From contig JAFVGI010000023.1 of assembly GCA_017475005.1 (NCBI GenBank), forward strand, positions 1 to 57,270: a DNA stretch of 57,270 nucleotides, given 5' to 3'. Under the pieces are notes generated by a model. It saw only the letters and a program-made list of their open reading frames with translations, searched no databases and had not been told where the DNA came from. Below are positions 1,307 to 51,985 of the stretch, one piece after another; positions within the stretch are counted from its first letter, which is position 1; each line of letters starts with the position of its first letter. Both the position numbers and the translations under genes were made by a program. This DNA is from Prevotella sp. (lineage in GTDB: Bacteria > Bacteroidota > Bacteroidia > Bacteroidales > Bacteroidaceae).

Positions 1307-1945
1307 ATGAGGAAAGTGTGTATTTTCTGGATGGTATTGCTCCTGGCTGTCGTGAATACGGCTTGTGCACAGGATGTAAAGACTGTGGTTGACAGCGTAA
1401 AGTCAAACGTGAAGGACAGCAGCATGAAAGAGGCTGTCTCGAATATCGCGGATGCTTTTAAGGCCAAGAAGGCCGAAGCAGAGGAGATGATTGGCACGTG
1501 GCATTATGTGGAACCTGCTGTTTATGCCACGAAGGGTAACCTGCTGTATAAACTCGCAGGAAACAGTGTGGCAAACCAACTGGAGAAGGTGCTCAACGAA
1601 TACATCAAGAAATGTGACATTACACCGGAGAATTGTATATTTACTTTTAACAGTGACGGAACGTTCGACCGCGATGTGGTCGGGCGTAAGGCTCATGGTG
1701 TATGGATGGTAGGCGGCCCAAGACTACTGCTGGGCATCAACAAAGTACTGACAGCTGATGTCATGACGCATCATGACGGCGACAAACTGATGTTTCTTAT
1801 CGATATTGACAAGCTGATGAATATACTCAAACTGTTAGGGGCAATGAAGGATAACAAGACGAATAAGACGCTGATAAAACTTACAAAGGCTATTCCAACT
1901 CTTCAGGCTGGTTTCTCGTTTCAGAAGATGAAAGGGGGGAATTAA
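1307..1945 (+). CDS. secreted DUF4923 (lipocalin-like) protein
   Basis: The 212-residue protein begins with a signal peptide (hydrophobic core about residues 5-18) ending TACAQ; the Cys could be lipidated, but the lipobox is weak. The mature part carries the GTWHYVEPAV motif near 63 that marks the DUF4923 family of Bacteroidetes, followed by an FNSDGTFDRDV turn and a GVWMVGG strand typical of a small lipocalin-like barrel. Function is unknown. The gene has its own promoter and is followed by a strong terminator, so it is probably monocistronic. Confidence 0.75.
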   Translation: MRKVCIFWMVLLLAVVNTACAQDVKTVVDSVKSNVKDSSMKEAVSNIADAFKAKKAEAEEMIGTWHYVEPAVYATKGNLLYKLAGNSVANQLEKVLNEYIKKCDITPENCIFTFNSDGTFDRDVVGRKAHGVWMVGGPRLLLGINKVLTADVMTHHDGDKLMFLIDIDKLMNILKLLGAMKDNKTNKTLIKLTKAIPTLQAGFSFQKMKGGN

Positions 1946-1963
1946 GAGTTAAGAGTTAAGAGG
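1941..1963. repeat. word-repeat tract, unit TTAAGAG
   Basis: Directly after the stop codon the word TTAAGAG is repeated three times. The same word recurs, in either orientation, at 49517-49542 and 51928-51948. Confidence 0.75.
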
Positions 1964-1981
1964 TTATTGTATATAAAAAAA

Positions 1982-2016
1982 CCGGAAGGATGTTGCCATC
2001 TTTCCGGATTTTTATT
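1982..2016. terminator. bidirectional intrinsic terminator
   Basis: CCGGAAGGATG (1982-1992) pairs with CATCTTTCCGG (1997-2007) around a TTGC loop, with one G-U pair. T-rich sequence follows on the plus side and an A-run precedes it, giving a T-run on the minus side. It can serve both the DUF4923 gene and the small minus-strand gene. Confidence 0.85.
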
Positions 2017-2032
2017 TTTAGTTTACGATTTC

Positions 2033-2054
2033 TATAACCGATAACCGTTAACCG
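2033..2054. repeat. word-repeat tract, unit ATAACCG/TTAACCG
   Basis: Three consecutive copies of a 7-8-base word, (A/T)TAACCG, end just before the stop codon of the small acidic protein. The same word is seen at 49451-49468 (complement) and 51958-51980. Confidence 0.7.
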
Positions 2055-2055
2055 C

Positions 2056-2217
2056 TTACTGCTCTGTTTCTGCTTCTACTTCGTTGGCTTCTACGCCTTG
2101 CTGGATGATGTTTTCACCTTTCTGGACAACATCTTCGGAAGCTTCTTCTACTTCGGCTTCGCTTTCTGACTCTGACAAATCAATAGCTTCTACCTTGCCA
2201 TCGAGGATTGCCTTCAT
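2056..2217 (-). CDS. small acidic hypothetical protein
   Basis: From ATG 2217 the frame encodes 53 residues, MKAILDGKVEAIDLSES onward, with a Glu-rich tail ending ETEQ. Codon use is strongly coding-like. The open frame continues upstream without ATG or GTG (a TTG at 2253 is possible) until a TGA near 2291, so this may be the 3' remnant of a longer gene. I recognise no domain; the acidic, low-complexity second half is probably disordered. It faces the DUF4923 gene across a shared terminator. Confidence 0.4.
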   Translation of the reverse strand: MKAILDGKVEAIDLSESESEAEVEEASEDVVQKGENIIQQGVEANEVEAETEQ

Positions 2218-2459
2218 ATCGTTGGCATCCAACTCAACAGTATAGTATAACAAGTAAAAATGTTTTTCAGGTTTGGAACAAACCGAGGTTTTTGCTCACG
2301 AAGTATGTGATGGCTCTGTAAGAGACAAAGATAAAAGGGAGATATTTTTATCTAAGAGTTTGCTCTTAAGGAAAAATAGATGCCTTGCATCGCAAAGGGC
2401 GGTAAAGCCCGACACATACAAAGTGAGGGTTTTTCTGGTTTTTGTTAAAAATATATCCG
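2218..2459. other. gap without a recognised gene
   Basis: This 240-base gap holds a TTAAGAG-tttg-CTCTTA-type inverted repeat near 2352-2370 and ends in CGCTAAACGCTAAAC words (2458-2472) over the maf stop. A plus-strand frame crosses it but does not look coding. Confidence 0.5.
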
Positions 2460-3161
2460 CTAAACGCTAAACTTCCTTATCTCCTCATATATTCTCTGTA
2501 CTGGGAGGCCCATGACGTTATAGTAGGAGCCTCGGATGCCGGTGATGCCGATATAGCCTATCCATTCCTGGATGCCGTAGGCACCGGCTTTGTCGAGGGG
2601 ATTGTATTTCTCGACATAATAGGTTATCTCTTCATCGGAGAGTTCCTTGAAGGTGACATCGGAGCATACGGTGCCGCTGACGGTTTTGTCGGCTGTCTGC
2701 AGGCAGTAGCCGGTATATACCTGATGGGTCTTGCCGCTGAGCTTGCGCAGCATGGCGCATGCATCGGCCGCATCATGGGGCTTACCGAGTATCTCACCAT
2801 CACAAACGACGATAGTGTCGGCGGTCAATATAATTGACAATTGACAATTGACAGTTGATAATTGAGAGTTGAAGAGTGAAGAATTTTCGTTAAGGTTAAC
2901 GTTTTTATAGGCTTTTGCTTTTTTGCGGGCGATGTATTCTGCTACTTCGTGGGGTGGAAGCGTGGGTGGATAGGATTCGTCGATGCCTTGCAAAACGAAT
3001 ACATCGTAAGGAATGCCGAGACCTGCCAGCAATTCCTTACGACGTGGAGAATTAGATGCGAGAATTATCTTCAATTTTGAATTACGAATTTTGAAGTAGG
3101 AAGTACGATGTGTCGCTACGCGAGGAAGAAGGACGAAGTACGAAGTAACATCAAATATCAA
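2460..3161 (-). CDS. maf: Maf/YhdE nucleotide pyrophosphatase, repeat-modified
   Basis: Maf proteins hydrolyse non-canonical and canonical nucleoside triphosphates to monophosphates. Core motifs are present: KIILASNSPRRKELL near 31-45, LTADTIVVCDGEILGKP near 112-128, LSGKTHQVYTGYCL, and the C-terminal GAYGIQEW and GSYYNVMGLPV. Two parts are atypical. A stretch of about 20 residues (NENSSLFNSQLSTVNCQLS) just before the catalytic TADT strand is encoded by a TCAATTG-type word repeat (2831-2890). About 30 residues before KIILASN are encoded by another repeat tract; TTG at 3071 would give the canonical MKIILASN start, whereas ATG 3161 gives the long form. The stop overlaps a CGCTAAA repeat. It is the last gene after radA and maeB. 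The identification is firm; the activity of the altered protein is not. Confidence 0.88.
   Translation of the reverse strand: MIFDVTSYFVLLPRVATHRTSYFKIRNSKLKIILASNSPRRKELLAGLGIPYDVFVLQGIDESYPPTLPPHEVAEYIARKKAKAYKNVNLNENSSLFNSQLSTVNCQLSIILTADTIVVCDGEILGKPHDAADACAMLRKLSGKTHQVYTGYCLQTADKTVSGTVCSDVTFKELSDEEITYYVEKYNPLDKAGAYGIQEWIGYIGITGIRGSYYNVMGLPVQRIYEEIRKFSV
2831..2890. repeat. word-repeat tract inside maf, unit AATTGACA
   Basis: AATTGACA is repeated about three times, then degenerates to AGTTGATAATTGAGAGTTG and GAAGAGTGAAGAATTTTCG. The tract is translated in frame on the minus strand as the extra segment of Maf. The part GAAGAGTGAAGAATT recurs at 50891-50905 and AATTTTCG at 51948-51956. Confidence 0.8.
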
Positions 3162-3240
3162 ACTTCAAACCTCCACCTCGGCAAAGCCGATACATCATAA
3201 TTCAAACTTCCAACTTGAAACTTGGAACTTGGAACTACAA
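3069..3240. repeat. word-repeat region between maeB and maf
   Basis: Successive words appear: AATTTTGAA twice (near 3073 and 3087), GAAGTA/GAAGTACGA four times, then CAAACTTC twice and finally AACTTG-GA three times (3211-3236). The region spans the maeB-maf gap and supplies the N-terminal extension of maf. Confidence 0.7.
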
Positions 3241-3241
3241 C

Positions 3242-5533
3242 CTACCTTCTGCTGCGGGCGAGTTTGTCGATATATGCGTCGATTACTGCTACTGCTGTGA
3301 TATTGACGATATCGCGGACACCTGAGTCGAAGTCGGTGAAGTGGATTGGTTTGTTAAGACCCATCTGGATAGGACCGATTACCTCTGTCTCAGGTGAGAA
3401 CTGCTGAATGAGCTTATAAGCAGAGTTTGCAGCAGAGAGGTTGGTGAATATCATAGAGTTGACCACCTCACCATGCAGGCGCAGGAATGGATATTTCTCA
3501 TCGCGACGCTCGTGGTCGAGGGCAAGGTCAATGGACATCTCGCCATCAATCTTCAGACTTGGATATTCTTCCTGCATCTCACGAACTACATCTGCCATCA
3601 GCTTTGGTGAGCCGTCCTTGTCAACACCGAAGTTAGAATAGGATATCATAGCAATCTTCGGTTCGTCATTGAAGAAACGGATGGTATCGGCAGTAAGACG
3701 GGCGATATCCTTGAGTACTTCCTTGTCCGGAGAACGGTTTACGAGGGTATCTGCGATATAGTATGTTCCGCGCTTGCTGTTGATGATATGCATAGTGCCG
3801 AAGTGCTTGTACTTCGGACGGATGCCGATTACCTCAGTAGCGGCCTTGATGGTGTTGGAGAACTTAGTATAGACACCTGTGATGAAGGCATCGGCCTCGC
3901 CTGTCTCGACCATCATCATGCCGAAGTAGTTGCGTTCAAACATCTTATCATTTGCCTCTTCGAAGTTATATCCCTCGCGGCAACGCTTCTCTGCCAACAG
4001 CTTTGCATAACGCTCACGACGCTCGCGCTGATTGTCGTGACGAAGGTTTACTATCTCGATGCCTTCGAGAGAGAGCTCCAGCTCTGCTGCCTGCTTCTTT
4101 ATCATCTCGTCATTACCGAGCAGGATAGGATAACAGAGTCCTTCGTTATATGCCTGTACGGCAGCCTTTATCATTGTTGGGTGCAGTCCTTCTGCAAAGA
4201 CCACCTTCTGCGGATGCTTGCGGGCTGTCTCGTAGAGCTTCTGGGTGAGGGATGTCTCCTGTCCCATGCGCAGACGCAGCTGGCGCTTGTATTTCTCCCA
4301 GTCGGTGATAGGCTTTCTCGCTACTCCACTGTCCATCGCTGCCTTAGCAACAGCAGAAGACACCTCAGTAATAAGGCGTGGGTCAACTGGCTTTGGTATG
4401 AAATAGTCAGGTCCGAAAGTGAGGTTGTTTACGCCATATACATTATTTACGACATCAGGAACGGGCTGCTTAGCGAGGTCGGCAATGGCATGCACTGCTG
4501 CTATCTTCATCTCCTCGTTGATGGCCTTGGCATTAACATCGAGGGCACCACGGAAGATATAAGGGAATCCGATGACGTTGTTTATCTGGTTAGGATGGTC
4601 GGTACGGCCTGTTGACATCAGCACATCAGGACGTGCTGCCATAGCATCCTCGTAGGATATCTCCGGAGTAGGATTGGCAAGGGCGAAGACGATAGGATGA
4701 TGTGCCATAGAGCGTATCATATCCTGTGTCACGATATTACCCTTTGAGAGTCCCAGGAAGACATCTGCATCCTGCATAGCCTCAGCAAGGGTATGCACAT
4801 CGCGGCGGTCGGTAGCGAAGAACTTCTTCTGCTCGTTGAGTCCCTCACGGTCGGAAGTGATGACACCACGTGAATCGAGCATCACGATATTCTCGCGCTT
4901 TGCTCCCAATGCCACATAGAGGCGGGTACACATGATGGCTGCTGCTCCGGCACCGCTGACTACAATCTTCACATCCTCAATCTTCTTCTTTGCCACCTCA
5001 AGGGCATTGATGAGTCCGGCAGCAGAGATGATAGCTGTTCCGTGTTGGTCGTCGTGCATCACAGGGATGTCGAGATTCTTCTTCAGGCGCTCCTCGATAT
5101 AGAAACACTCAGGAGCCTTGATATCCTCAAGATTGATACCGCCAAAGGTAGGAGCGATGCGCTCTACTGCCTCGCAGAACTTCTCAGGGTCTTTCTCATT
5201 GACTTCGATATCGAAGACATCGATGCCACCATATATCTTAAAGAGGAGGCCCTTACCCTCCATAACAGGCTTTCCGGACATAGCACCGATGTCACCGAGT
5301 CCCAGAACGGCAGTACCGTTAGAGATAACAGCAACGAGATTTCCCTTGTCGGTATATCTGTATGCATCATCGGGGTTATTCTGAATCTCAAGACAGGGAT
5401 ATGCCACACCTGGCGAATAAGCCAGCGAGAGGTCTGTCTGGGTGTGATATGCCTTGGTAGGCATCACTTCAATCTTTCCTGGGCGGCCTTCCTCATGATA
5501 CTGAAGGGCGGCCTCTTTTGTAATCTTTGCCAT
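3242..5533 (-). CDS. maeB: NADP-dependent malic enzyme fused to a phosphotransacetylase-like domain
   Basis: The 763-residue protein has the two-part build of MaeB. Residues about 1-430 form the malic enzyme, which oxidatively decarboxylates malate to pyruvate: YSPGVAYPC near 38, [10 protein letters not shown] near 158 with metal/substrate Asp residues, and the Rossmann loop SGAGAAAIM near 193. Residues about 430-763 resemble phosphate acetyltransferase ([39 protein letters not shown]); in MaeB this part is usually regulatory. The start [10 protein letters not shown] fits homologues. It lies 22 bases after radA and probably shares its transcript. It supplies cytosolic pyruvate and NADPH. Confidence 0.95.
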
Positions 5534-5555
5534 AATTTTATTTCAATCTTTTTAC

Positions 5556-6935: not shown

Positions 6936-6943
6936 ACAGGCTG

Positions 6944-7009
6944 CAAAGTTACGAAAAAACGAGCGAAATGCAAAAGAAAATCGAAATTTTCTTTTCATTT
7001 CCGAGTGCA
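6944..7009 (-). promoter_or_regulatory. radA promoter with palindrome over the -33 box
   Basis: Read on the minus strand: -33 TTTG (6974-6971), 19-base spacer, -7 TAACTTTG (6951-6944), only 8 bases before the ATG. A perfect 10-bp inverted repeat with a 4-base centre (6972-6981 and 6986-6995) overlaps the -33 box, and a CACTCGGAAA motif lies beyond it. The same arrangement occurs at 34199-34255. A second TAACTTTG at 7035-7028 may be an upstream promoter. Confidence 0.75.
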
Positions 7010-7057
7010 TAGTAACTTCGGCACAGCCAAAGTTACGAAAAAAATAAAGAAAACGAA

Positions 7058-7113: not shown

Positions 7114-9303
7114 CTACTTTTTCTTTGTAGCTGCAGCTTTCGTTTTGGTTTTCGTTGCTGCTACAGTTTTCTTTTTGGTTTTCGTTTTCGTTTCTGCTGC
7201 AGTTTTCGTTTTGGTTTTCGTTTTCGTTGCTGCAGTTTTCGTTGCTGCTGCAGTCTTCTTCGCCGGAGCCGCAGCAACCTTCTTCTTCAGCACGACAGCG
7301 GAGCGTGCAGGGATATAGAGTTGCAGCCAACCCTTACCATCCTCAGCATACATCGGGTCGAAATTAGTGAAGTGTGCCACACTATCGTCAGAGAATCCGA
7401 AGCCACCGTAGTCAGGAGAATCGGTATTGAGCACTACATTATATTCGCCCAATGGTACGAGGAAGCCATAGTCGGTATAAGAACGTGTTGGAGAGAAATT
7501 AAAGACATAGAGCAGGTCACCACGCATGAATGCCATAATCTGGTCGCCCTCGTTAATCCATATCTCCTGAACAGGAGTGAGGTTGAAGTCTTTCTGGGAT
7601 TTCATCACCTCTATCATCTTACGGTCGAAATCACCGAGCCAATGATAGCACAGTTCCTTATTGTCAACAAGATTCCACTGACGGCGGGCATACTTACAGC
7701 TCCATCCGTTACCCTCGCGAGGGAAGTCAATCCATTCTGGATGTCCCCACTCATTACCCATGAAGTTGAGGTAGCCGCCTCCCATAGTAGAAGAGGTAAC
7801 AAGGCGTATCATCTTATGGAGAGCAATACCGCGACGAGCCATCTCGTTTTCGTCACCCTTCTTGAAGTGCCAATACATATCGGCATCGATGAGACGGAAG
7901 ATGATGGTCTTATCGCCCACAAGAGCCTGGTCGTGTGACTCTGCATAAGAGATGGTCTTCTCGTCAGCACGACGGTTGGTCATCTCCCAGAAGATATCAC
8001 GAGGATTCCATTGCTCATCACTCTTCTCCTTAATCATCTTTATCCAATAGTCAGGAAGTCCCATTGCAAGACGATAGTTGAAGCCGAGACCACCATCCTC
8101 AAACTTCGCAGCAAGACCTGGCATACCGGACATCTCTTCTGCTATAGTGATGGCATTCTTATTCACCTCGTGGATAACCTGATTGGCAAGGGCAAGATAG
8201 CAAAGAGCATTATCGTCCTCTCCACCATTGAAGTAGTCGGCATAGCCTCCAAAGTCAACACCAAGGCCATGATTATAGTACAGCATTGAGGTAACACCAT
8301 CGAAGCGGAAACCATCGAAATGGAATTCGTCAAGCCAATACTTACAGTTAGACAGCAGGAAGTGCATCACCTGGTCTTTACCATAGTCGAAGCAGAGGCT
8401 GTCCCACTGGTTGTGCTCGCGACGGTCACCAGGATAGAAATACTGGTTTGGATCACCACAGAGATTTCCCAAGCCCTCAACCTCATTCTTCACAGCATGA
8501 GAGTGAACGAGGTCCATGATGACAGCAAGTCCGTTCTGGTGGGCCTCATCAACCAGCTGCTTCAGTTCCTCCGGAGTACCGAAGCGACTTGATGGAGCGA
8601 AGAAATTAGATACATGGTATCCGAAAGAACCATAATAGGGATGCTCCTGAATGGCCATTATCTGTATGCAGTTATATCCCTCCTTGACGATGCGTGGAAG
8701 GATTTTCTCACGGAATTCTGTATATGTACCAACCTTCTCGGCATCCTGTGCCATACCGATGTGGCACTCATAGATGAGAAGCGGTGTAGTATCAGGCTTG
8801 AAGGTCTTTTTCTTCCACTTATACTCCTTTTCCGGTGCCCACACCTGAGCAGAGAATATCTTTGTCTCATCATCCTGTACCACACGACGCACCCATGCAG
8901 GAATACGCTCTCCCTGACCGCCAGGCCACTTTACAAGCATCTTGTAGAGGTCACCATGCTTCAGAGCTGTCTTAGGGAGTTTTATCTCCCAATCCTGTCC
9001 GTTCTTACTCTTCTTGAGGGCATACTTGGGGGATTCCTTCCACTTGTTGAAATCACCGATAAGGTAGATTTCTGTAGCATTAGGAGCCCACTCACGGAAA
9101 ATCCACTCGCCTTTCTCATTGCGATGCAGGCCGTAATAGAGGTAGCCTGTTGCAAAGTCTGACAGTTTCATCTTACCGCCATTAGTGAGATGATCTATCA
9201 TCCACAAAGCATGATCATGACGACCCTGAATGGCATTCTCGAATGGTTCCAGCCAAGGATCATTGGCAACGATGCCAATATGTTTTGGAGTTGTTTCTTT
9301 CAT
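7114..9303 (-). CDS. glgB: 1,4-alpha-glucan branching enzyme with a (KT)n tail
   Basis: GlgB introduces alpha-1,6 branches into glycogen. The 729-residue protein has an N-terminal CBM48 module (FREWAPNATEIYLIGDFN near 69-86) and a GH13 barrel: DLVHSHAVKN, the nucleophile segment FRFDGVTSML, the acid/base segment AEEMSGMPG, and ESHDQALVGD. The build resembles the eukaryotic-type branching enzymes usual in Bacteroidetes. About 55 residues at the C-terminus are odd: Ala/Thr/Lys runs (TKTKTKTK) coded by AAAACG/AAAACC hexamers, as in the uvrA linker. The tail is probably dispensable for catalysis. It follows the YhcH gene by 36 bases and ends at a strong terminator. Confidence 0.95.
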   Translation of the reverse strand: MKETTPKHIGIVANDPWLEPFENAIQGRHDHALWMIDHLTNGGKMKLSDFATGYLYYGLHRNEKGEWIFREWAPNATEIYLIGDFNKWKESPKYALKKSKNGQDWEIKLPKTALKHGDLYKMLVKWPGGQGERIPAWVRRVVQDDETKIFSAQVWAPEKEYKWKKKTFKPDTTPLLIYECHIGMAQDAEKVGTYTEFREKILPRIVKEGYNCIQIMAIQEHPYYGSFGYHVSNFFAPSSRFGTPEELKQLVDEAHQNGLAVIMDLVHSHAVKNEVEGLGNLCGDPNQYFYPGDRREHNQWDSLCFDYGKDQVMHFLLSNCKYWLDEFHFDGFRFDGVTSMLYYNHGLGVDFGGYADYFNGGEDDNALCYLALANQVIHEVNKNAITIAEEMSGMPGLAAKFEDGGLGFNYRLAMGLPDYWIKMIKEKSDEQWNPRDIFWEMTNRRADEKTISYAESHDQALVGDKTIIFRLIDADMYWHFKKGDENEMARRGIALHKMIRLVTSSTMGGGYLNFMGNEWGHPEWIDFPREGNGWSCKYARRQWNLVDNKELCYHWLGDFDRKMIEVMKSQKDFNLTPVQEIWINEGDQIMAFMRGDLLYVFNFSPTRSYTDYGFLVPLGEYNVVLNTDSPDYGGFGFSDDSVAHFTNFDPMYAEDGKGWLQLYIPARSAVVLKKKVAAAPAKKTAAATKTAATKTKTKTKTAAETKTKTKKKTVAATKTKTKAAATKKK
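7140..7275. repeat. AAAACG/AAAACC hexamer tract in glgB
   Basis: On the minus strand the coding sequence consists largely of AAAACG, AAAACC and GCAGC words, giving (KT)n and Ala runs. The string ACGAAAACGAAAACCAAAAC also occurs in the uvrA linker (40527-40546). Confidence 0.8.
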
Positions 9304-16661: not shown

Positions 16662-18194
16662 ATGATACTTACATTAGCAATACTCGCAGCGCTGATAATC
16701 GGCGGACTATGCGGATACTTGATTTTCAGATATGTTATCAAGTTCAAATATAACGAGATGCTTGCCAATGCTGAAAAGGCATCAGAAGTTATAAAGGAAA
16801 AGAAACTCCTGGAAGTAAAGGAGAAGTTTATTAACAAGAAAGCAGAACTGGAGCAAGAGATACAACAACGCAACCAAAAGATGCAGCAGACTGAAAACCA
16901 GTTGAAGCAGCGTGAAATGAATCTCAACCAGCGTCAGGAAGAAACCAACAAACACAAGCAGGAACTTTCACAGTTACAGAGTCGTCTCGACACCCAGCGT
17001 AATGCTTTGACCGTAAAGGAGCAGGAACTGGAATCCATGATTCATAAAGAGCGCGAAAAACTGGAGCAGCTTTCAGGCCTTTCTGCCGAAGAGGCAAAGA
17101 ATCACCTCATTGAAAGCATGAAGGACGAGGCGCGCACTAATGCCCAGTCTTACATTAACGAAATAATGGACGAGGCAAAGATAAATGCCAATAACGAAGC
17201 CCGTAAGATTGTCATCAAGACTATTCAAAGAGTTGCAACAGAAGCAGCCGTTGAGAATTCTGTTTCTGTCTTCCATATTGAGAACGACGATGTAAAGGGC
17301 CGTATTATCGGACGTGAGGGACGTAATATCCGTGCTCTCGAAGCTGCCTGCGGAGTTGAAATCGTTGTGGATGACACTCCAGAAGCTATCGTTATTTCTG
17401 CATTTGACCCAATTCGTCGTGAGACCTGTCGCCTTTCTCTTCACCAACTTGTTGCAGACGGTCGTATCCACCCTGCACGCATCGAAGAAGTTGTTGCAAA
17501 GGTAAAGAAGCAGCTTGAGCAAGAGGTTATCGAGACTGGTAAGCGCACAGCCATAGACCTTGGAATACACGGCCTGCACCCAGAACTGGTACGCATTATC
17601 GGTAAGATGAAATATCGTTCTTCTTACGGACAGAATCTTCTGCAGCATGCTCGTGAGACAGCAAATCTCTGTGCTGTGATGGCAGCAGAGTTAGGTCTTA
17701 ATGCCAAGAAGGCAAAACGTGCCGGACTCCTACACGATATTGGTAAGGTGCCTGATGAGGACCTCGAAATGCCACACGCTCTCTATGGTGCAAAGATTGC
17801 TGCACAGTATAAGGAGAAGCCAGAAATATGCAATGCCATCGGTGCTCACCATGATGAAATGGAGATGGAATCTCTCATTGCTCCGATTGTACAGATATGT
17901 GATGCCATCAGTGGTGCAAGACCTGGTGCACGCCGTGAGATTGTTGAGGCATACATCAAGCGTCTCAATGACCTTGAGGCTATTGCAATGTCTTACCCTG
18001 GTGTTCAGAAGACTTACGCTATTCAGGCAGGACGCGAATTACGTGTCATCGTTGGTGCAGACAAGATTACCGATGCTGAAATAGAAACACTCTCTAATGA
18101 CATCGCTACAAAGATACAGAATGAGATGACATATCCGGGACAGGTTAAGATTACTGTTATCCGTGAAACACGTTCTATTTCTTATGCTAAATAA
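16662..18194 (+). CDS. rny: ribonuclease Y
   Basis: RNase Y is a membrane-anchored endoribonuclease that starts mRNA decay. The 510-residue protein has an N-terminal membrane helix (residues 2-22), a long coiled coil rich in Gln/Glu/Lys to about 185, a KH domain with [15 protein letters not shown] near 210, and an HD domain with [13 protein letters not shown] near 352. The C-terminus [15 protein letters not shown] is the usual family ending. Probably cotranscribed with zapA. Confidence 0.97.
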
Positions 18195-18222
18195 CTCCCC
18201 TTTCACTCCCCTTTAAATTATT

Positions 18223-39027: not shown

Positions 39028-41521
39028 AGTCTTAGGAGCAAGAGTGCACAACCTCAAGAATATTGATGTTACAATACCACGAAACAGTCTGACCGTCATA
39101 ACAGGTCTCTCTGGTTCTGGCAAATCATCGTTGGCTTTCGATACTATCTATGCAGAAGGACAACGACGATATATCGAGACATTCTCGGCCTATGCCCGTA
39201 ATTTCTTAGGAAACATGGAGCGTCCTGACGTGGACGAGATCAAGGGATTATCGCCAGTTATCTCTATAGAACAAAAGACAACGAACAAGAATCCCCGCTC
39301 TACTGTTGGTACTACCACAGAGGTCTATGACTTTCTCCGATTGCTCTTTGCCAGAGCTGGTACAGCATATAGCTATGCCACAGGAGAGAAGATGGTGAAA
39401 TATACAGAAGACCAGTTGGTAGGGATGATTCTGGAACGCTATGCCAACAAGAAGATTTACATCCTTGCTCCATTGGTAAGAAACAGAAAGGGCCACTACA
39501 GGGAACTCTTCGAGCAGATGATGAAGAAGGGGTTTCTGCAGGTGCGCATTGATGGCGAGCTGCAAGAGATGACCCATGGCATGAAACTCGACAGATACAA
39601 CAACCACAATATTGAGGTGGTGGTTGACAAGTTGAAAGTCAGCGATGATGAGCAGCGTGTTCGCAAAAGTGTAGAGGTAGCGATGAGACAGGGCGAAGGC
39701 CTTATCATGATTATGGATAAGGACACAGAAGAAACAAGATATTTCTCTAAGAGGCTGATGTGTCCTACCACAGGAATGGCATATAGAGATCCTGCTCCTA
39801 ATGTTTTCTCTTTTAACTCTCCCGAAGGGGCTTGTCCATATTGCAAGGGATTAGGATTCGTCTCTGACGAAGACCCTTTGGCGGAAGCAGAGATAAAAAA
39901 TGTAGAGGAAGAGGAAATGAGGGAATATGCTATCTGTCCTGCCTGCAAAGGAAAGAGATTATCCCAGGAAGCATTGTCATATCGCTTGCATGACAAGAAT
40001 ATTGCAGACCTCGCTGACATGGATCTGGACGAACTCTACGAATGGCTGGAGAAAGTACCACAGCATCTGGAGCAACGTCAGAACGAGATAGCTGGGGAGA
40101 TACTGAAAGAAATCCGAACCCGATTGAAATTCATGCTTGATGTGGGGTTGGAATATCTTGCCCTCAGCAGACCATCATACACCTTGTCAGGAGGCGAAAG
40201 CCAACGCATCAGATTGGCAACACAGATAGGTTCACAACTGGTTAATGTGCTATACATCCTCGACGAGCCATCAATAGGACTACATCATAGCGACAACAAA
40301 AAACTCATCAGTTCATTACAGAAATTACGTGACTTGGGAAATACCGTTATAGTAGTGGAACACGATGAGGAAATGATGTTGGCAGCAGATTACGTTATAG
40401 ACATAGGTCCTGGAGCAGGCAGAAAAGGTGGTGAAGTCGTTTTTCAGGGTACACCAGAACAACTGTTAAAGACAGACACCCTGACAGCAAAATATCTTAA
40501 CGGCACCATAAAGCGTATTGATAAAACGAAAACGAAAACCAAAACCAAAACGAAAACGGAAACCAAAACAGAGACGGAAATAGGGAATGCCATCACCCTT
40601 AAGGGTTGTACTGGCAATAATCTGAAGAATGTCACTGTCAGTTTTCCACTTGGAAAGATGATTCTCGTCACTGGTGTCAGCGGTTCTGGAAAATCAACAC
40701 TTATCAACGAGACGCTACAGCCCATTCTGTCGCAACATTTCTATCGCTCGGAGAAGGCTCCTCTACCCTATGACTCCATTGAAGGTATAGAATATATAGA
40801 TAAGGTGGTAAGCATCGACCAGTCACCAATAGGCAGAACGCCACGAAGCAATCCTGCCACATATACTGGTGTCTTTTCCGACATCCGTTCGCTATTCATA
40901 AATCTTCCAGAAGCAAAGATTAGAGGTTACAAACCTGGACGCTTTTCCTTCAACGTCGCAGGAGGACGCTGTGAGACCTGTAACGGTAACGGATACAGGA
41001 CAATAGAGATGAACTTCCTGCCAGATGTCTATGTACCGTGTGAGGTATGTCAGGGAAAGCGCTATAATCGTGAAACTCTTGAGGTGAGATACAAAGGCAA
41101 GAGTATTGCTGATGTGCTTGATATGACAATCAATCAGGCAGTAGAGTTCTTTGAGAATATGCCAAAGATACTCCGCAAAATAAAAACACTGCAGGATGTT
41201 GGCTTGGGATATGTGAAACTGGGACAATCCTCAACAACACTCTCTGGTGGTGAGAGTCAGCGTGTGAAACTGGCCACAGAGTTATCGAAACGAGACACTG
41301 GAAAAACCCTTTATATACTTGACGAACCTACTACAGGATTACACTTTGAAGACATCAGGGTGCTAATGCTGATATTACGTAAACTCGTTGACAAAGGCAA
41401 CACTGTTATCATCATAGAGCACAACCTCGATGTTATACGCCAAGCCGACCATATCATTGATATGGGTCCTGGAGGAGGAAGAAAAGGGGGACAAGTAGTC
41501 TCAGTTACTGAAATTCCTTAA
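39002..41521 (+). CDS. uvrA: excinuclease ABC subunit UvrA, shortened
   Basis: UvrA recognises DNA damage for nucleotide excision repair. Both ABC ATPases are present: Walker [14 protein letters not shown] near 34 and [13 protein letters not shown] near 562, and two LSGGES signatures. The UvrB-binding part ([14 protein letters not shown]) is intact. At 839 residues it is about 100 shorter than usual: between the first zinc pair (CPYC) and second (CPACKGKRL) only about 30 residues remain where most UvrA proteins have about 130. The linker before the second ATPase is a (KT)n run coded by AAAACG/AAAACC hexamers. It overlaps the upstream barrel gene by 26 bases and the convergent guanylyltransferase by 17. 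Confidence 0.93.
40524..40580. repeat. AAAACG/AAAACC hexamer tract in uvrA
   Basis: About nine consecutive hexamers encode [18 protein letters not shown] in the linker before the second ATPase. The word and part of the exact order match the glgB tail. Confidence 0.85.
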
Positions 41522-43491: not shown

Positions 43492-43565
43492 TGACCCCGA
43501 TGGGATTCAAACCCATGACCTCAGGAACCGGAATCCTGCGCTCTATTCAGCTAAGCTACGGAGCC
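43492..43565 (-). tRNA. tRNA-Arg (anticodon CCG)
   Basis: The 74-base cloverleaf folds: acceptor GGCTCCG with CGGGGTC (one G-U and one U-G pair), D arm, anticodon stem CAGGA/TCCTG with loop TTCCGGT giving anticodon CCG (43529-43531), T stem ATGGG/CCCAT, discriminator A. CCA is not encoded. A -7 box TAACTTTG (43627-43620) lies about 55 bases upstream. Confidence 0.95.
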
Positions 43566-46183: not shown

Positions 46184-47419
46184 ATGCTAAACAAATTTCT
46201 CTACATATTCCTCATGGTTTTCACCTGCAGCAATGCCTTCTCACAAAGCGTGCTGCCAACAGCTTCTGACTCTCTTCGTGCCCGACAGAGTAATCTCAAT
46301 GCCATGGAGTATGTCTTCGACGAAGACGAGATTCCTGAGAGTATGAATCAAGAGATGGAAGACCTGCTGAGAGATTATAATGCTCAGCACTATCTGTTTG
46401 TCGATTCTGACTGCGTACAGATGCCGACTGGTCCCATATTTACCAAGGAAGAGACCATTGAGCGCCTTCGTCGCATGCCAACAATTATCGAGATGCCGTG
46501 GAATGAGGTAGTACAGAATTACATCGACCGCTATGCCAATAAGCTGCGCCGTCATGTGAGCCTGATGCTGGGAGCACAGAATCTGTATATGGAGATTTTT
46601 GAGGAGGCTCTTGAGACCTATGGCCTTCCCCTCGAACTGAGATATCTGCCTGTCATAGAGTCAGCCCTTAATCCTAACGCCGTAAGCCATGCTGGTGCAG
46701 GTGGCCTGTGGCAGTTTATGGTGGCAACAGGACAGCGCTATGGTCTTCGAGTAAACAGCCTTGTCGATGAACGCCGTGATCCTACGAAGTCATCCTATGC
46801 AGCAGCACATTATCTGTATGACTTATACCAGATTTTCAACGATTGGCATCTGGTTATCGCTGCATATAATGCTGGCCCTGGAAACATACAGAAAGCCATC
46901 ACACGAGCAGGCGGTTCACGCGACTATTGGGAGATATACCCATTCCTGCCAGCAGAGACACGAGGATATGTGCCTGCATTCATTGCAGCAAACTATATCA
47001 TGACATTCTATCGCGACCATAATATCTGCCCTATGAAGACAACACTTCCGCAACAGGCTGATACTATTGTCGTAACAAAGAATCTTCATTTCAAACAGAT
47101 TTCAGAGGTTATCGGAATACCTATCGAAGAACTCCGCGCCTTCAATCCGCAATATCGCCACGATATCATAACGGGATATACCGAACCGACAGACTTCCGC
47201 ATGCCGACTGAATATGTGAAACTATACATTGCCAACGAAGACTCCATCTGGGCTTATGATGTCTCAAATCTCATGAAGCGCGACCAGGTAGAGGTAAGGT
47301 CTTACTCTTCCACAAGGTCTTACTCCCGCCACTACTCCAAGAAGTCTTCAAAAAAGGCTGTCAGCAAGAGTTCACGCAAAGCCACCACCCGCAAGTCTTC
47401 ACGCAAAAGAAGAAAGTGA
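46184..47419 (+). CDS. mltD: membrane-bound lytic murein transglycosylase (MltD-like)
   Basis: The 411-residue secreted protein cleaves peptidoglycan glycan strands. After a signal peptide (SNAFSQ) it has an SLT domain with the catalytic Glu in VIESALNPNAVSHAGAGGLWQFM near 159-181 and AYNAGPGNIQKAI near 228. One LysM-like segment (LHFKQISEVIGIPIEELRAFN) and a very basic Ser/Lys/Arg tail follow. The stop codon lies in a TGACCTT word repeat. Confidence 0.92.
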   Translation: MLNKFLYIFLMVFTCSNAFSQSVLPTASDSLRARQSNLNAMEYVFDEDEIPESMNQEMEDLLRDYNAQHYLFVDSDCVQMPTGPIFTKEETIERLRRMPTIIEMPWNEVVQNYIDRYANKLRRHVSLMLGAQNLYMEIFEEALETYGLPLELRYLPVIESALNPNAVSHAGAGGLWQFMVATGQRYGLRVNSLVDERRDPTKSSYAAAHYLYDLYQIFNDWHLVIAAYNAGPGNIQKAITRAGGSRDYWEIYPFLPAETRGYVPAFIAANYIMTFYRDHNICPMKTTLPQQADTIVVTKNLHFKQISEVIGIPIEELRAFNPQYRHDIITGYTEPTDFRMPTEYVKLYIANEDSIWAYDVSNLMKRDQVEVRSYSSTRSYSRHYSKKSSKKAVSKSSRKATTRKSSRKRRK

Positions 47420-47448
47420 CCTTAGACCTTTGACCTTTGACCTTTGAC
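47417..47448. repeat. word-repeat tract, unit TTTGACC
   Basis: TGACCTT-AGACCTT-TGACCTT-TGACCTT-TGAC fills the gap between mltD and rel and includes the mltD stop codon. Confidence 0.8.
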
Positions 47449-47455
47449 AAAAGAA

Positions 47456-49453
47456 ATGCAAACAACAGACGAACTATATGAATCCTTGGTGAAGGGTTAC
47501 ATGGAGTCCGCCCACCGTAAGAAGGTGGACCTGATACAGAAAGCATACAATTTTGCTTGCCATGCCCATGAGGGTGCTACACGCCCTTGTGGCGAACCTT
47601 ATATGATACACCCACTCTCTGTTGCTATCATAGCATCACAGGAGATGGGACTTGGCTCTACCAGCATCTGTGCTGCCCTGCTCCATGACTCTATAAAGGA
47701 TACCGACTATACCATTGATGATATTGAGAATATCTTTGGCACAAAGATAGCACAGATTGTTGACGGACTGACAAAGCTTTCTGGCGGCATCTTTGGTGCC
47801 CAAGCCGAAGCAGATGCCGAGAAACTCAAGAAACTTCTTCTCACCATGAGTGAGGACATCCGCGTCATCCTTATCAAGATATGCGACCGCCTCGACAATA
47901 TGCGCCACATAGAGCGCGAAGAGAAGGAGAAGCGCAGCAAGATTGCCGGTGAGACTCTATATCTCTATGCACCCCTTGCCAATCGACTCGGATTAAATAC
48001 CATAAAGTCCGAACTCGAAGACCTCGCCTTCCGCTATGAATACCCAAAGGAGTATGCCAAGATAGAGAAGAACCTGCAGCATACCAATGCACAGCGTGAG
48101 ACATTGTTCGAGGCCTTCACGGCACCCATAAGGAAAGAACTTGACAAGATGGGTATCAAATACACCATCAAGGCCCGCGTCAAGAGTCCCTACTCTATTT
48201 GGAATAAGATGCAGAAGAAGAATGTCTCCTTCGACGAGATATACGACATTCTTGCTGTTCGCATCATCTATGAACCCAAGTCACGGGAGGACGAGGTTGA
48301 TGATTGTTTCCGCATCTATGTAGCCCTCAGCCGCATGTATAAGTCCCATCCGGGACGTCTTCGCGACTGGCTCTCCCACCCTAAGGCCAATGGCTACAGG
48401 GCTCTTCATGTCACCCTCATGAGTAAGCAGGGACAGTGGATAGAAGTGCAGATACGTTCTACCCACATGGACGATATTGCGGAACAGGGTTTTGCTGCCC
48501 ATTGGAAGTATAAGGATGATGCTGACCCTATGAATACCGAGAAGGTTACAGAGGACGAACTCAACGGATGGCTGCAGACCATCAAGGAGATTCTCGACGA
48601 CCCACAGCCGGATGCTATGGATTTCCTCGATGCCATAAAGCTCAATCTCTTTGCCTCCGAGATATTCGTCTTCACCCCGAAGGGCGACATCATCACGATG
48701 CCAGCAAACTGTACGGCACTCGATTTTGCCTTCCAGATACACACCTTCCTCGGCACCCATTGCATTGGTGCAAAGGTGAACCATCGCCTCGTGCCGCTGT
48801 CACAGCATCTGAAGGGTGGCGACCAGGTAGAAATCATCACGTCGTCTTCGCAGCATGTACATCCCGACTGGCTCAACTATGTTACTACTGCCAAGGCTCG
48901 CAACAAGATACAGTCGCTCTTGCGAAAACAGGAACGTGAGCAGGCCCGTGCAGGAGAGGAGATTCTCAAGGCGTGGCTGGAGCAGAATGGTCTCACCATC
49001 ACCACACAATCCCTCGACCGCCTTCGTGAGAGTCACATGAGCGGCACCAACGAACGCCTGCTCATCGATATTGCCAATGGTGATATCACTCTCGACCAGC
49101 GCGACCTCAACTGCGTACTATACGGTCCAAAGAATGCCGATAACAAACTGCATAAGAAGGGATGGCGCAGATATGTGCCATTCATGAAGGCCAAAGAGGC
49201 AAAGGTGATTACTGAGCGAGATATCACATACACCATCTCCCTGCGTGGCATCGACCGCAAAGGTATGCTGAAAGATGTTTCGACATTGCTCTACGAACAG
49301 TTCGACATCAACATCCTAAAACTCAACATCCAGACCAACGACGGCATCTTCTCCTGCGAAGCAGTCTTCAAAGTACGCGATAACACCATCCTCGATACCA
49401 TCATCCAAAAGATGAAAGAAATCGAAGGCATCAAGAAAGTACAGAAGAAGTAA
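47456..49453 (+). CDS. rel: RelA/SpoT family (p)ppGpp enzyme, hydrolase site altered
   Basis: From ATG 47456 the 665-residue protein has an HD domain (about 25-180), a synthetase domain (about 230-350) with YDILAVRII, WLSHPKANGYRALHVTLM and QWIEVQIRS, a TGS domain (about 390-450), and an ACT domain at the end. The synthetase residues look intact. The hydrolase motif normally reads HD-x-x-ED; here it reads HDSIKD (H77, D78, K81, D82), so the catalytic Glu is Lys, while R43, H52, D144 and N148 remain. The protein may therefore be synthesis-only, or controlled by a second Rel elsewhere. An in-frame TTG at 47444 inside the repeat is rejected as the start. Confidence 0.93.
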   Translation: MQTTDELYESLVKGYMESAHRKKVDLIQKAYNFACHAHEGATRPCGEPYMIHPLSVAIIASQEMGLGSTSICAALLHDSIKDTDYTIDDIENIFGTKIAQIVDGLTKLSGGIFGAQAEADAEKLKKLLLTMSEDIRVILIKICDRLDNMRHIEREEKEKRSKIAGETLYLYAPLANRLGLNTIKSELEDLAFRYEYPKEYAKIEKNLQHTNAQRETLFEAFTAPIRKELDKMGIKYTIKARVKSPYSIWNKMQKKNVSFDEIYDILAVRIIYEPKSREDEVDDCFRIYVALSRMYKSHPGRLRDWLSHPKANGYRALHVTLMSKQGQWIEVQIRSTHMDDIAEQGFAAHWKYKDDADPMNTEKVTEDELNGWLQTIKEILDDPQPDAMDFLDAIKLNLFASEIFVFTPKGDIITMPANCTALDFAFQIHTFLGTHCIGAKVNHRLVPLSQHLKGGDQVEIITSSSQHVHPDWLNYVTTAKARNKIQSLLRKQEREQARAGEEILKAWLEQNGLTITTQSLDRLRESHMSGTNERLLIDIANGDITLDQRDLNCVLYGPKNADNKLHKKGWRRYVPFMKAKEAKVITERDITYTISLRGIDRKGMLKDVSTLLYEQFDINILKLNIQTNDGIFSCEAVFKVRDNTILDTIIQKMKEIEGIKKVQKK

Positions 49454-49547
49454 CGGTTAACGGTTATAGAAACACTACACGCTACACGCTAAACACTACA
49501 CGCTAAACACTACACACTTAACTCTTAACTCTTAACTCTTAATTTAA
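49451..49547. repeat. compound word-repeat tract between rel and the pectinesterase gene
   Basis: Three word families follow each other: TAACGGT (twice, overlapping the rel stop), ACACTACACGCTAA (about four partial copies), then ACTCTTA (four copies, 49517-49542). It fills nearly the whole intergenic gap. Confidence 0.85.
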
Positions 49548-49549
49548 TA

Positions 49550-50428
49550 ATGCCCCGCATTTTCTCATTCTTTATTTTTTCATTTTTTCATTTTTTCATA
49601 CTTACCGCGTCAGCACAGTTTGACACTATCGTAGTGGCACACGATGGCACTGGCGATTGTCGTAGTGTTGCGGAGGCTATCAACAAATGTCGTGCCCTGA
49701 TGGATACCCAACGCGTTATATATATTAAAAAAGGTGTCTATAAGGAAAAGCTCGTCATCCCCTCCCATCTCACCCACATCCAACTGAGGGGTGAGGACCG
49801 TGATTCAACCATCATCACCTACGACGACCATGCCAACATCAATAATATGGGCACCTTCAATACCTATACCCTCAAGGTGTCAGGTCAGGAGATTGTCATC
49901 TGCGACCTCACCATCGAAAATAATGCTCCACAGCTGGGACAGGCAGTGGCCCTCTTTGCCGATGGCGACGGGCAGTACTATGTCAACTGCCCCTTCTTGG
50001 GTAATCAGGACACCGTCTATACTGGCCCGGGAAAAGCTACGCAACATTTTGATGACTGCATCATCGAAGGCACTACCGATTTCATCTTCGGACCTGCAAC
50101 AGCATACTTCGACAATTGTACCATCATAAGCAAGAAAAACTCCTACATCACCGCCGCTGCCACCCCTAAGGATGTGGAGGTGGGATATGTCTTCACCAAC
50201 TGCTATCTGAAGGCAGCCCCAGGAGTTACGAAGTGCTATCTCGGACGTCCGTGGAGGCCCTATGCCTATACCCACTTTCAAGACTGCTGGTTTGGCTCAC
50301 ATATATGCCCTGAAGGATGGGACAACTGGCGCAATCCAGAGAACGAAAAGACAGCCCGCTATTCCGAAGCCCGCAACTACGGCCCCGGCGCCGACACCTC
50401 AAAACGCGTAAAATGGGCGAAACACTGA
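49550..50428 (+). CDS. secreted pectinesterase (CE8 family)
   Basis: Pectinesterase removes methyl esters from homogalacturonan. The 292-residue protein has the CE8 beta-helix motifs: GTFNTYTLKV near 100, GNQDTVY near 151 with a catalytic Asp, GTTDFIFG near 174 with the second Asp, and LGRPWRPYAY near 233. The signal peptide is unusually Phe-rich (FSFFIFSFFHFFI) because it is coded by an ATTTTTTC word repeat (49575-49598). No other pectin genes are adjacent, so it is an isolated enzyme. Confidence 0.95.
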   Translation: MPRIFSFFIFSFFHFFILTASAQFDTIVVAHDGTGDCRSVAEAINKCRALMDTQRVIYIKKGVYKEKLVIPSHLTHIQLRGEDRDSTIITYDDHANINNMGTFNTYTLKVSGQEIVICDLTIENNAPQLGQAVALFADGDGQYYVNCPFLGNQDTVYTGPGKATQHFDDCIIEGTTDFIFGPATAYFDNCTIISKKNSYITAAATPKDVEVGYVFTNCYLKAAPGVTKCYLGRPWRPYAYTHFQDCWFGSHICPEGWDNWRNPENEKTARYSEARNYGPGADTSKRVKWAKH

Positions 50429-50447
50429 AGTTTAAAGTTAAGATAAT

Positions 50448-50483
50448 GGCGTAGCATGCAATCAAGCATTCTATGCCTTTTTT
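50448..50483 (+). terminator. terminator after the pectinesterase gene
   Basis: GGCGTAGCATGC (50448-50459) pairs with GCATTCTATGCC (50466-50477) with one mismatch and one G-U pair around a 6-base loop, followed by T6. Confidence 0.8.
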
Positions 50484-50889
50484 ACTTCTCAAATCGCAGC
50501 AGCGGTGTTATCCTCTCCATTGTTTTGGCATCGAAGGAAGGGAGGGCAGCGATATCGGTGGCGCTGGTGATGGCGCCTGCGACACGTCGCAAGGTAATTA
50601 TATCGCGCGCCTGCGCGTAATTTATAAGAGGATGGGCATCCAACTCTTTCTGCGACCATTTATTGACATATATCTCCGGAAAATCCTGCGACGCCGTCAT
50701 ATACGTCAGTGCCGTCTCAGGAAAATTACGTATTACAAGCAGTTCTTCTGGTGACGAAAATGCCTGCCTGCGCTTACGCAACTCCACTATACGCATAGCA
50801 AAATAATCTCCAATGCCCGGAATGCGCTTCAACAAAGCTGTATCGGCTGTATTAATATCAACAGTCTCGCCATAGCGGAGTTTTCTAAG

Positions 50890-51003
50890 TGAAGAGTGAA
50901 GAATTATTATCACCTTGAACTTCTTGAACTCCTTGAACCTTTGAACTATTTGAACTATTTGAAATCTTTGAACTTCTTGAACTCTTTGAACTTCTTGAAC
51001 TCT
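50890..51003. repeat. word-repeat tract, 9-bp unit TTGAACTCT/TTGAACTTC
   Basis: About ten 9-base words, variants of TTGAACTTC, follow one another. Because the unit is nine bases it stays in frame and encodes SSKSSRSSK-type repeats in piece B of the HHH gene. The left end, GAAGAGTGAAGAATT, is shared with the tract in maf. Confidence 0.9.
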
Positions 51004-51221
51004 TTATGACATCTGCTGCCATTACCTCGGGTTTGATGGTGATGTATGGTTCCAGCTGACGATATTTCTCCAGCGTCAACCCATAGAGACGTGCAAAGTC
51101 TTCCTTAACACGATAGCGTCCACCACGGGAACGGTATTTCAGAATATTACGGACCTGTTGTCGCGAGAGTCCCAACGATAAGAGCTGTGACTCAGAAGCG
51201 GTGTTGGGGTCGAAGTTAGTT

Positions 51222-51252
51222 AGGTGAAGGTGAAAGGTGAAAGGTGAAAGTT
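51222..51252. repeat. word-repeat tract, unit AGGTGAA
   Basis: AGGTGAA is repeated about four times at the break between pieces A and B of the HHH gene and introduces an in-frame stop on the minus strand. Confidence 0.85.
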
Positions 51253-51415
51253 ATCGAAATTCTCCGACAGAACCGTTTTGGAACTTGAACCGCTTAAACT
51301 TTCTTGAACCCTTGAATTTTTTAAACTTCCATCGTTCTGTTCCGACAAATAGGGGAACAGGACGATGGATACTATTATCACCAGTGCGAGGACGATAGCA
51401 GCATCGCGGTCGCTA

Positions 51416-51919
51416 CTATTGAAACGCCTCAGGAATTTCATGCTTCCATGTGGGATAGGATTCCTTGAGCAGGTGCTTGTTATAGAAATGTGGATTGCCC
51501 GTCACCTCGGGGCCGAGGAATTCAGGCTTTGCAAAGTCTTCGTCGGCACTGCCCAGTTCGACCTCTGCGAACAGCAATCCGTCGTTGGCACCATGAAAGT
51601 CATCAACCTCAAAGGTGTGGCCCTCATAGGGTATGAGATAGCGTGTCTTCTCTATCAATCCTCCATGACACAGACGCAGCATCTCTTCTGCATCAGCAAC
51701 GGGTATCTCGCGTTCAAACTCATAGCGTGACAATCCGCCATCGAGAGAGGGGCCCTTGATGGTGAGGAATGCCTTTTCGCCATAAAGGCGCACACGCACC
51801 GTTGCACCCTTTACATCCATATAACCCTGACAGATAAGGGAACGGGATACGGACGGGGTGACGAAGCGAGAGAAGAAACACTCGCGATGAACCAGGAATT
51901 TACGTTCTATCTCCTGCAC
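51416..51919 (-). CDS. CYTH-domain protein (triphosphate tunnel enzyme)
   Basis: The 167-residue protein starts with EIERKFLV, the CYTH signature, and continues with alternating Arg/Lys/Glu strands (ATVRVRLYGEKAFLTIKG, YEFEREI, KTRYLIPY, EVDDFHG, FAEVELGS) that line the acidic/basic tunnel of this family. Small bacterial members are usually inorganic tripolyphosphatases; adenylate cyclase activity is less likely. It lies 71 bases after the small membrane protein, across a repeat tract. Confidence 0.9.
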   Translation of the reverse strand: MQEIERKFLVHRECFFSRFVTPSVSRSLICQGYMDVKGATVRVRLYGEKAFLTIKGPSLDGGLSRYEFEREIPVADAEEMLRLCHGGLIEKTRYLIPYEGHTFEVDDFHGANDGLLFAEVELGSADEDFAKPEFLGPEVTGNPHFYNKHLLKESYPTWKHEIPEAFQ

Positions 51920-51924
51920 CTTAA

Positions 51925-51985
51925 ATAAATTAAGAGTTAAGAGTTAAGAATTTTCGCTAACCGCTAACCGATAACCGTTAAACGT
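51925..51985. repeat. word-repeat tract, units TTAAGAG and CGCTAACC/ATAACCG
   Basis: TTAAGAG words lead into AATTTTCG, then CGCTAACC, CGATAACC and GTTAAACG words. The same combination of words is found near 1941, 2033, 2880 and 49451. Confidence 0.85.

Follow-up and report, generated by a model that had tools for sequence, protein, structure and literature searches.

The stretch of DNA considered here, called the window below, is the whole of contig C13 (57,270 nucleotides) in the genome of a Prevotella species (G000), whose assembly amounts to 2.36 Mb in 72 contigs and is 81% complete. At the ends of several of its genes, and inside two of them, the window contains tandem arrays of short, slightly varied words. 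A preliminary description had announced at least nine such sites and named ten; all ten hold tandem repeats, and the words and coordinates given are correct within a few bases. For comparison we used five close sister genomes found via relA (G040, G041, G042, G043 and G044), which are 80–91% identical to G000 over the first 1.7 kb of that gene. The relevant features are as follows.

1942–1962, + strand: array of three TTAAGAG, overlapping the stop codon of the gene at 1307–1945
2034–2054, + strand: array ATAACCG ATAACCG TTAACCG, in the gap
2458–2472, no strand given: CGCTAAA, 2.1 copies, over the end of maf; weak, two copies
2460–3161, − strand: maf-like gene (PF02545), host of two sites
2830–2904, − strand: drifting heptamer array with the junction AATTTTCG and GTTAAGG, in frame within maf
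3073–3224, − strand: one copy of the dispersed composite element described below, covering the start of maf, its heptamer words flanked by GATGTATCGGCTTTGCCGAGG and CTCGCGTAGCGACACATCGTA
47418–47448, + strand: TGACCTT array, which begins at the stop codon of the SLT-domain gene at 46184–47419
49451–49542, + strand: two TAACGGT, then CTACACG/CTAAACA words, then four CTTAACT, from the relA/spoT stop codon (the gene ends at 49453) to the next gene
50888–51005, − strand: AGTGAAG heptamers and a period-9 TTGAACTTC array, inside the helix-hairpin-helix gene, whose frame is interrupted here
51222–51330, − strand: AGGTGAA heptamers, also words of the TTGAAC type, in the 5' part of the helix-hairpin-helix gene; AGTTGAG words in G041
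51922–51986, + strand: composite insert of 65 bp before the CYTH gene, made of three TTAAGAG, the junction AATTTTCG and CTAACCG-type words

Heptamer arrays in the window

The tandem words are far above what composition predicts. TTAAGAGTTAAGAG is found at 1942, 1949 and 51930 and, on the opposite strand, at 49522 and 49529; TAACCGNTAACCG is found at 2035, 2042, 51958 and 51965 and, on the opposite strand, at 49454: five matches in each case, against none in 100 shuffles. GAAGAGTGAAGAATT occurs at 2871 and 50891, and likewise in none of 100 shuffles. When arrays are counted at a score of at least 10, the window contains ten of period 7, and the mean over 10 dinucleotide shuffles is 0.0. The two matches of AATTTTCG, which had also been taken for a shared word, are what chance gives (mean of 2.4 in shuffles), and this sequence acquires a meaning only where it joins two arrays.

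The unit of 6–9 bases that was proposed does not hold as a general rule: it is 7 at the listed sites, apart from a single period-9 array (50914–51001, inside a gene). The sites were also said to lie directly after or over stop codons, which is the case for about half of the ten (1942, 2458, 47418, 49451 and possibly 2034). It is not for those at 2831 and 3069–3236, which lie inside or at the start of maf, nor for those at 50890 and 51222, in the helix-hairpin-helix gene, nor for the one at 51925, before the CYTH gene. No RNA family is found over the arrays in an Rfam search of the window, in which only a tRNA (43492–43565) passes the gathering threshold.

A genome-wide family

The arrays are widespread in the genome. 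The larger sample of G000 (457 kb, about 19% of the genome) consists of the window and 20 stretches from contigs matched in the search; at a score of at least 12, it contains 93 period-7 arrays, against none in shuffles (one per stretch). Other periods are found less often (15 arrays of period 6, 12 of period 11 and 6 of period 9). Typical words, read on the C-rich strand, are CTTAACT, TTCACTC, TTGACCT, TTAACCG, CTCAATT and CTAAACT. A period of 7, well above chance at many loci, is also what defines heptamer simple sequence repeats, which include long simple sequence repeats (LSSR) and the cyanobacterial heptanucleotide repeats reportedly named short tandemly repeated repetitive sequences (STRR), a name said to go back to Mazel in 1990.

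The sister G041 has 99 period-7 arrays in 400 kb (about 13% of its genome; 8 of its 20 stretches, on contigs C1 and C4, were picked near known matches). The stretches of G040, G042, G043 and G044 were likewise picked near matches, so that array densities are rough. Among other relatives, there are 11 arrays in 100 kb of G008, 5 in 48 kb of G022 and 1 in 40 kb of G001; arrays are scarce in G016 (1 in 200 kb), G010 (0 in 120 kb) and G004 (0 in 100 kb at score 12, although this genome is classed as array-rich below). In further genomes of the genus, represented by one stretch of 8–20 kb each, 7 of 14 have at least one array. The pattern TTAAYTCTTAAYTCTTAAY is present in 80 of 150 genomes of the genus and in 20 of 198 genomes of the phylum (G000 being counted in both).

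Other repeats were observed along with the heptamers. A family of 11-base repeats (AGTGAAAGGGG / CCCCTTTCACT) is represented at 18194–18214 of the window and at L033:16436, L040:19134, L041:14163 and L048:11149; none of the 12 period-11 arrays of the sample lies inside an open reading frame (ORF). The dispersed composite element (about 130–260 bp) consists of two small hairpin-like blocks (CGGCTTTGCCG and TCGCGTMAGCGA) with heptamer words between them, and was seen at 3073–3224 of the window, L033:10415–10676, L046:5799–5960, L047:19391–19535 and L040:14739–14871. Its 3' end, AGCGAYACATCRTA, has 25 matches with at most one mismatch (16 exact), and its reversed control has none. Positions 2260–2459 of the window are a repeat of about 200 bp with two more copies on contig C30 (L039:6990–7193 and 1722–1892, 87–88% identity), and arrays of period 6/18, of the GTTTTC and AAAACG type, lie at 7138–7258 and 40523–40580.

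Placement relative to genes

Positions were analysed with a simple and crude model of 363 ORFs covering 90% of the DNA, in which some arrays scored inside ORFs may reflect false ORFs or false extensions. Of the 98 array clusters of the G000 sample, gaps contain 62 and ORFs 31, and the other 5 lie at ends. Just 22 of the 93 period-7 arrays lie inside ORFs, though the model spans most of the DNA, and this excess outside coding regions is also a property of LSSR and STRR. The preference for stop codons holds in the larger sample: of the 36 gap arrays that have a stop codon as neighbour and enough space to be shifted, 15 (42%) are within 5 bp of that codon, against 10% when they are placed at random in the same gaps. 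On the start side, 15% of 27 arrays are within 5 bp of the start codon (8% in the control). Divergent gaps make up 27 of the 197 gaps, yet they hold 3 of the 62 gap arrays. Of 44 arrays with a period divisible by three, 29 are within ORFs, as against 23 of 113 with other periods; among the period-6 arrays of the sample it is 9 of 15.

Of 513 words, 94% include a stop triplet on one strand or the other (82% after letter shuffling, maximum 86%), as do 85% of the distinct words (74% after shuffling, maximum 83%). We considered that the words might be carriers of stop codons and rejected the idea, the excess being modest.

Turnover of the words between sister species

Fourteen collinear blocks of G000 and G041, about 100 kb in total, were aligned. 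The 20 array clusters of G000 in these blocks comprise 6 that are at least 80% identical, 8 between 50 and 80% and 6 lower; for the 22 clusters of G041 the figures are 2, 11 and 9 (identities at arrays depend on how the repeats align). Below 80% identity, a period-7 array of some kind is nevertheless present at that place in the other species in 9 of 14 cases (clusters of G000) and 13 of 20 (clusters of G041). The change between the two species is probably undercounted, because block ends often coincide with arrays. It had been proposed that orthologous gaps be compared in order to see whether they evolve by ordinary slippage; they do not evolve by slippage alone, since many sites have different words.

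Several kinds of change can be distinguished. At the gap at 47417, G041 and G044 share blocks of GATGGATGAAGG and AGGTGAAA in different numbers, a change of copy number by slippage that is also characteristic of LSSR and STRR, seen here between species and not within one. The same gap has TTGACCT in G000, other heptamer words in G040, G041, G042 and G044, and no array in G043. At 49451, TAACGGT has changed to TAAAGGT, so that slippage and concerted change are plain, as they are at 47417. In the same relA-end gap (49451–49542), which holds TAACGGTTAAAGG words in G041, the CTACACG, CTAAACA and CTTAACT words of G000 at 49472 stand against TTAAAGG. At L036:7553 and at 51227 of the window, AGGTGAA faces AGTTGAC or AGTTGAG over an equal length, as expected from concerted change by slippage. 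Period-7 arrays are found in G041 only at positions corresponding to 35080, 36275 and 52154 of the window and to L048:1703, L043:10056 and L039:12152, by either gain or loss, and new word blocks adjoin retained ones at L039:15181 and L042:3830.

The dictionary is common to the sister species although the arrays at single sites often differ. The cosine between the vocabularies of G000 and G041 is 0.71 (letter-shuffled mean 0.12, maximum 0.24), and all of the 20 most frequent words of G000 recur in G041. With the pooled, more distant members of the genus the cosine is 0.31, for a control maximum of 0.25.

Arrays inside genes

The array of maf lies between the conserved motifs YIARKKA.AY and LTADTIVVCD and reads KNVNLNENSSLFNSQLSTVNCQLSII in G000. 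At the same position, the Maf proteins of G041, G042 and G043, whose main matched stretches are 79–92% identical to that of G000, have other segments, of 50, 44 and 30 residues, respectively. The lengths between the conserved parts are 99, 171, 153 and 111 nucleotides in G000, G041, G042 and G043, all multiples of three; four species thus have four different in-frame inserts at one position. No match to maf was found in G040 and G044. The inserts of G041 (L221) and G042 (L219) have in common a hairpin-like module of about 80 bp, whose in-frame reading is SKFLQSGVQTLGASGQAERSTLNSQL; the G041-only insert opposite L043:10056 includes a stretch that looks similar. The helix-hairpin-helix gene (about 50482–51442) has arrays at two places, and its frame is interrupted in this assembly.

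Evidence for copying between loci

The gap at 51922 measures 74 bases between the anchors in G000, but 4 in G041 and 2 in G042, the two sisters in which the gap is readable, and the 65-bp composite of 51922–51986 is absent from both. Another locus of G000 with different flanks, C58:8540–8595, matches this composite over 56 bp at 93% identity. The match spans two word types and the junction between them, and none of 40 block-permuted controls matches as well. A weaker relative, 86% identical over 58 bp, is found in G041. The insert, the only one examined in both respects, shows neither a duplication of the target over 4 bases nor inverted ends; it therefore lacks the combination of terminal inverted repeats and target-site duplication by which miniature inverted-repeat transposable elements and Rickettsia palindromic elements are recognised.

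At the C58 site, the sisters carry other arrays, which are alike in G040 and G044 and different in each of G041, G042 and G043. The gap has an array in common and a changed end in G044 (L226) and G040 (L227), and G041, closer to G044 in relA, is without them.

In total, eight composites (three of G000 and five of G041) were each compared with 40 permuted controls; four of them, including two of the five G041-only inserts, beat all the controls, and four did not. No sign of a copied source was seen for the three other G041 inserts and for the maf array, where 24, 8, 4 and 2 of the 40 controls were equal or better.

Enzymes that could be involved

It had been suggested to look for a reverse transcriptase, terminal transferase or polymerase whose presence correlates with the repeats. 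Genomes were classed as array-rich or array-poor from counts of one pattern, to which the sister species were added; G041 and G119 have identical coordinates and are a single genome, so that the counts are of distinct genomes. The reverse transcriptase domain RVT_1 is found in 6 of 15 array-rich and 12 of 16 array-poor genomes (one of the 12 below the curated cut-off), and its presence thus does not track the arrays; none was found in G000, G040, G042 and G043, the absence in G000 being weak in an assembly that is 81% complete. Since it is commoner in array-poor genomes, we rejected reverse transcriptase as the cause, including that of diversity-generating retroelements and retrons. The Y1/REP transposase PF01797, which is associated with repetitive extragenic palindromic (REP) elements as the REP-associated tyrosine transposase, has no match in G000, again in an assembly of 81% completeness.

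Loss of mismatch repair was also rejected, as a MutS_V match over the cut-off exists in all of 32 entries. G000 has a single, lower-scoring MutS_V match (120 bits), whereas all the other 31 entries, which represent 30 distinct genomes, have a high-scoring one. A further MutS_V protein, the third, is shorter, with an open frame of mostly about 600–670 amino acids: 14 of the 16 array-poor genomes possess it, as do 5 of the 15 distinct array-rich ones (as a fragment in one of the five). This is only a lead, completeness and kinship being uncontrolled in these counts.

Possible mechanisms

We propose, with a probability of roughly 0.58, that the sites are members of a single population of heptamer tandem repeats, spread over the genome and turning over fast by slippage and ectopic copying, filtered by selection. 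Slippage in a 7-base register would lengthen, shorten and homogenise the arrays, and mutated words would take over, as the differences between species suggest. Occasionally, a piece of an array, sometimes with a junction of two words or a small hairpin module, would be copied elsewhere and land in an array-free gap or beside an existing array; the resulting state is seen in a few cases, from which the step itself is deduced. Since the common words agree in several of their seven letters, pieces probably pass from array to array by template switching or short-homology recombination, and not through a dedicated enzyme. Selection would remove the arrays that damage genes, so that those which survive lie immediately after stop codons, in gaps between convergent or codirectional genes, or in frame in protein loops: the positions are observed, and selection is their likely cause. 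The word stock may remain stable while single sites change because the pool circulates.

The evidence supports copying for some arrays and makes slippage alone insufficient to account for all of them. The initial idea that simple slippage should be replaced by copying, template switching or a specific insertion process is thus partly supported, by the 51922 composite; slippage and concerted change are plain in other arrays, at 47417 and 49451.

Several points weigh against the proposal. The successes of 51922 and C58 are one pair seen from both ends, which leaves three independent cases, and the failures against the controls reported above concern as many composites as the successes. The 13-mers at junctions shared over all arrays are 38, when the permuted mean is 18 and the maximum 37, which is too weak for overall sharing to be proof of copying. 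The presence of TTAAYTC arrays in distant families would require repeated origin or transfer, and the distribution at the C58 gap suggests exchange between species as well. All comparisons are between species and none at strain level, so that no single event is seen; the arrays present only in G041 may be losses in G000; and the composite search covered only about 19% of G000 and 13% of G041. Copying need not be general among the composites.

The proposal has to be weighed against local slippage only, where each array would arise from its own seed, often a stop codon and the next bases, and the vocabulary would simply be that of the heptamers that slip most easily. Arrays indeed often begin with the stop codon (TGACCTT at 47418, TAACGGT at 49451, AATTAAGAG at 1942), stop-triplet words are in modest excess, related words of equal length face each other at L036:7553 and 51227, the same words are found again in distant genera, and overall junction sharing barely exceeds the control. 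On this hypothesis, one would not expect a composite to fill a gap which two sisters have empty and to match another locus at 93% identity over 56 bp, nor unrelated words in the same gaps, as at 47418 and C58:8520; slippage alone is in part refuted here, and we find it rather improbable. It is equally doubtful, in the opposite direction, that we are dealing with an undescribed cellular copying process that would move array pieces in a 7-base register between gene ends and protein loops, each lineage keeping the one dictionary but rewriting its arrays before a conserved gene diverges by a tenth, and feed new in-frame segments into housekeeping proteins such as Maf.

A dedicated insertion system, in which a transposase, a reverse transcriptase, a terminal transferase or a special polymerase writes or copies the words, would fit the composite insertion at 51922, the many matches to the 3' end of the dispersed element and the hairpin-like module common to maf of G041 and G042. 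We consider it unlikely, considering the distribution of RVT_1, the lack of target duplication at 51922 and the absence of PF01797, which incompleteness of the assembly makes a weak argument; terminal transferases and polymerases were not searched for. Less likely still, the arrays may be functional sites (for translation control, termination or binding of a protein to DNA) kept by selection, as proposed for the TAACTGA repeats of Beggiatoaceae: this would be consistent with the stop-codon preference, the scarcity in divergent gaps and the shared vocabulary, but sister species differ in the words and, at some gaps, even in having an array or not, arrays also occur within coding sequence, and TAACTGA is not a tandem word here (no pairs). 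Last, the nearest named relatives are metagenome bins, and a TTAAYTC array is present in 27 of 68 high-quality genomes of the genus against 53 of 82 others, which could point to an artefact of metagenome assembly. This is largely refuted, and most improbable in our opinion, as independent bins have different yet in-frame inserts in maf and genomes given as 97–99% complete (G004, G074, G099 and G119) carry arrays too.

Comparison with known repeats

That no described system fits, as was first thought, is too strong a statement, since heptamer tandem repeats have been published in several bacterial groups (PMC4679880, PMC4692102; here and below, the comparison relates to parts of the sources cited). 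Heptamers are the most abundant class of repeats in most of the genomes of Mrazek 2007, as cited in PMC4679880, and one explanation proposed for the period of LSSR and STRR is that the polymerase contacts 7 bases (via PMC4679880 and PMC4692102). Other satellites of prokaryotes are described in PMC6749651 and PMC9879509. Among the papers listed by a literature search, mostly outside subscription journals, there was no study of such arrays in Prevotella.

Bacterial heptamer repeats are usually put down to slippage. Here, close species that have slipping arrays, word-swapped arrays, a composite where sisters have only an empty gap, and a stable dictionary make the spread of short bacterial satellites testable by genome comparison, and the arrays in maf show one way in which a housekeeping gene gains new in-frame protein segments.

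The arrays resemble the heptanucleotide LSSR and STRR in that the period is 7, the loci are many and mainly intergenic; they differ from them, as these are presented in the parts of PMC4679880 and PMC4692102 considered, by the mixed vocabulary of the composites, a few of which occur at more than one locus, and by words that change at orthologous sites. TAACTGA direct repeats have been described in Beggiatoaceae, Cyanobacteria and five Bacteroidetes (MacGregor 2015, PMC4679880). They too are heptamer arrays with a patchy distribution in bacteria and other heptamers mixed in, and relatives with shorter gaps that have no obvious repeats are a shared trait. However, they consist of one word which, in its main genome, is mostly found just before start codons, whereas the arrays described here have many words and favour stop codons (42% of 36 against 10%) over the upstream side of start codons (15% of 27 against 8%); no tandem pair of TAACTGA is present in 457 kb of G000 or 400 kb of G041.

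The GGGAATC / GGGGA(C/T)T heptamers of Xanthomonas and Nostoc form 186 and 183 arrays in two Xanthomonas genomes (Rehm 2015, PMC4692102). These heptamers have, like the present arrays, a degenerate consensus, a location near or over stop codons, a lower frequency between divergent genes, and length and sequence that vary at the same gaps between two Xanthomonas species. Unlike the present arrays, they are G-rich, form quadruplexes and follow one consensus, and copying between loci is not mentioned in the parts of PMC4692102 considered. Rickettsia palindromic elements (PMC10969869) are also small dispersed modules in frame inside ORFs, a case which the module common to maf of G041 and G042 resembles, but they are about 150 bp long with a conserved peptide, while the present inserts are mainly mosaics of heptamers. 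The tandem repeats of Borgs (PMC9879509) likewise evolve fast, lie between and inside genes and create new protein segments; they are unique to their locus and generally perfect, unlike the imperfect words common to several loci described here. The heptamer repeats of this Prevotella are therefore of a known kind, and what is unusual is the traffic of words between places.

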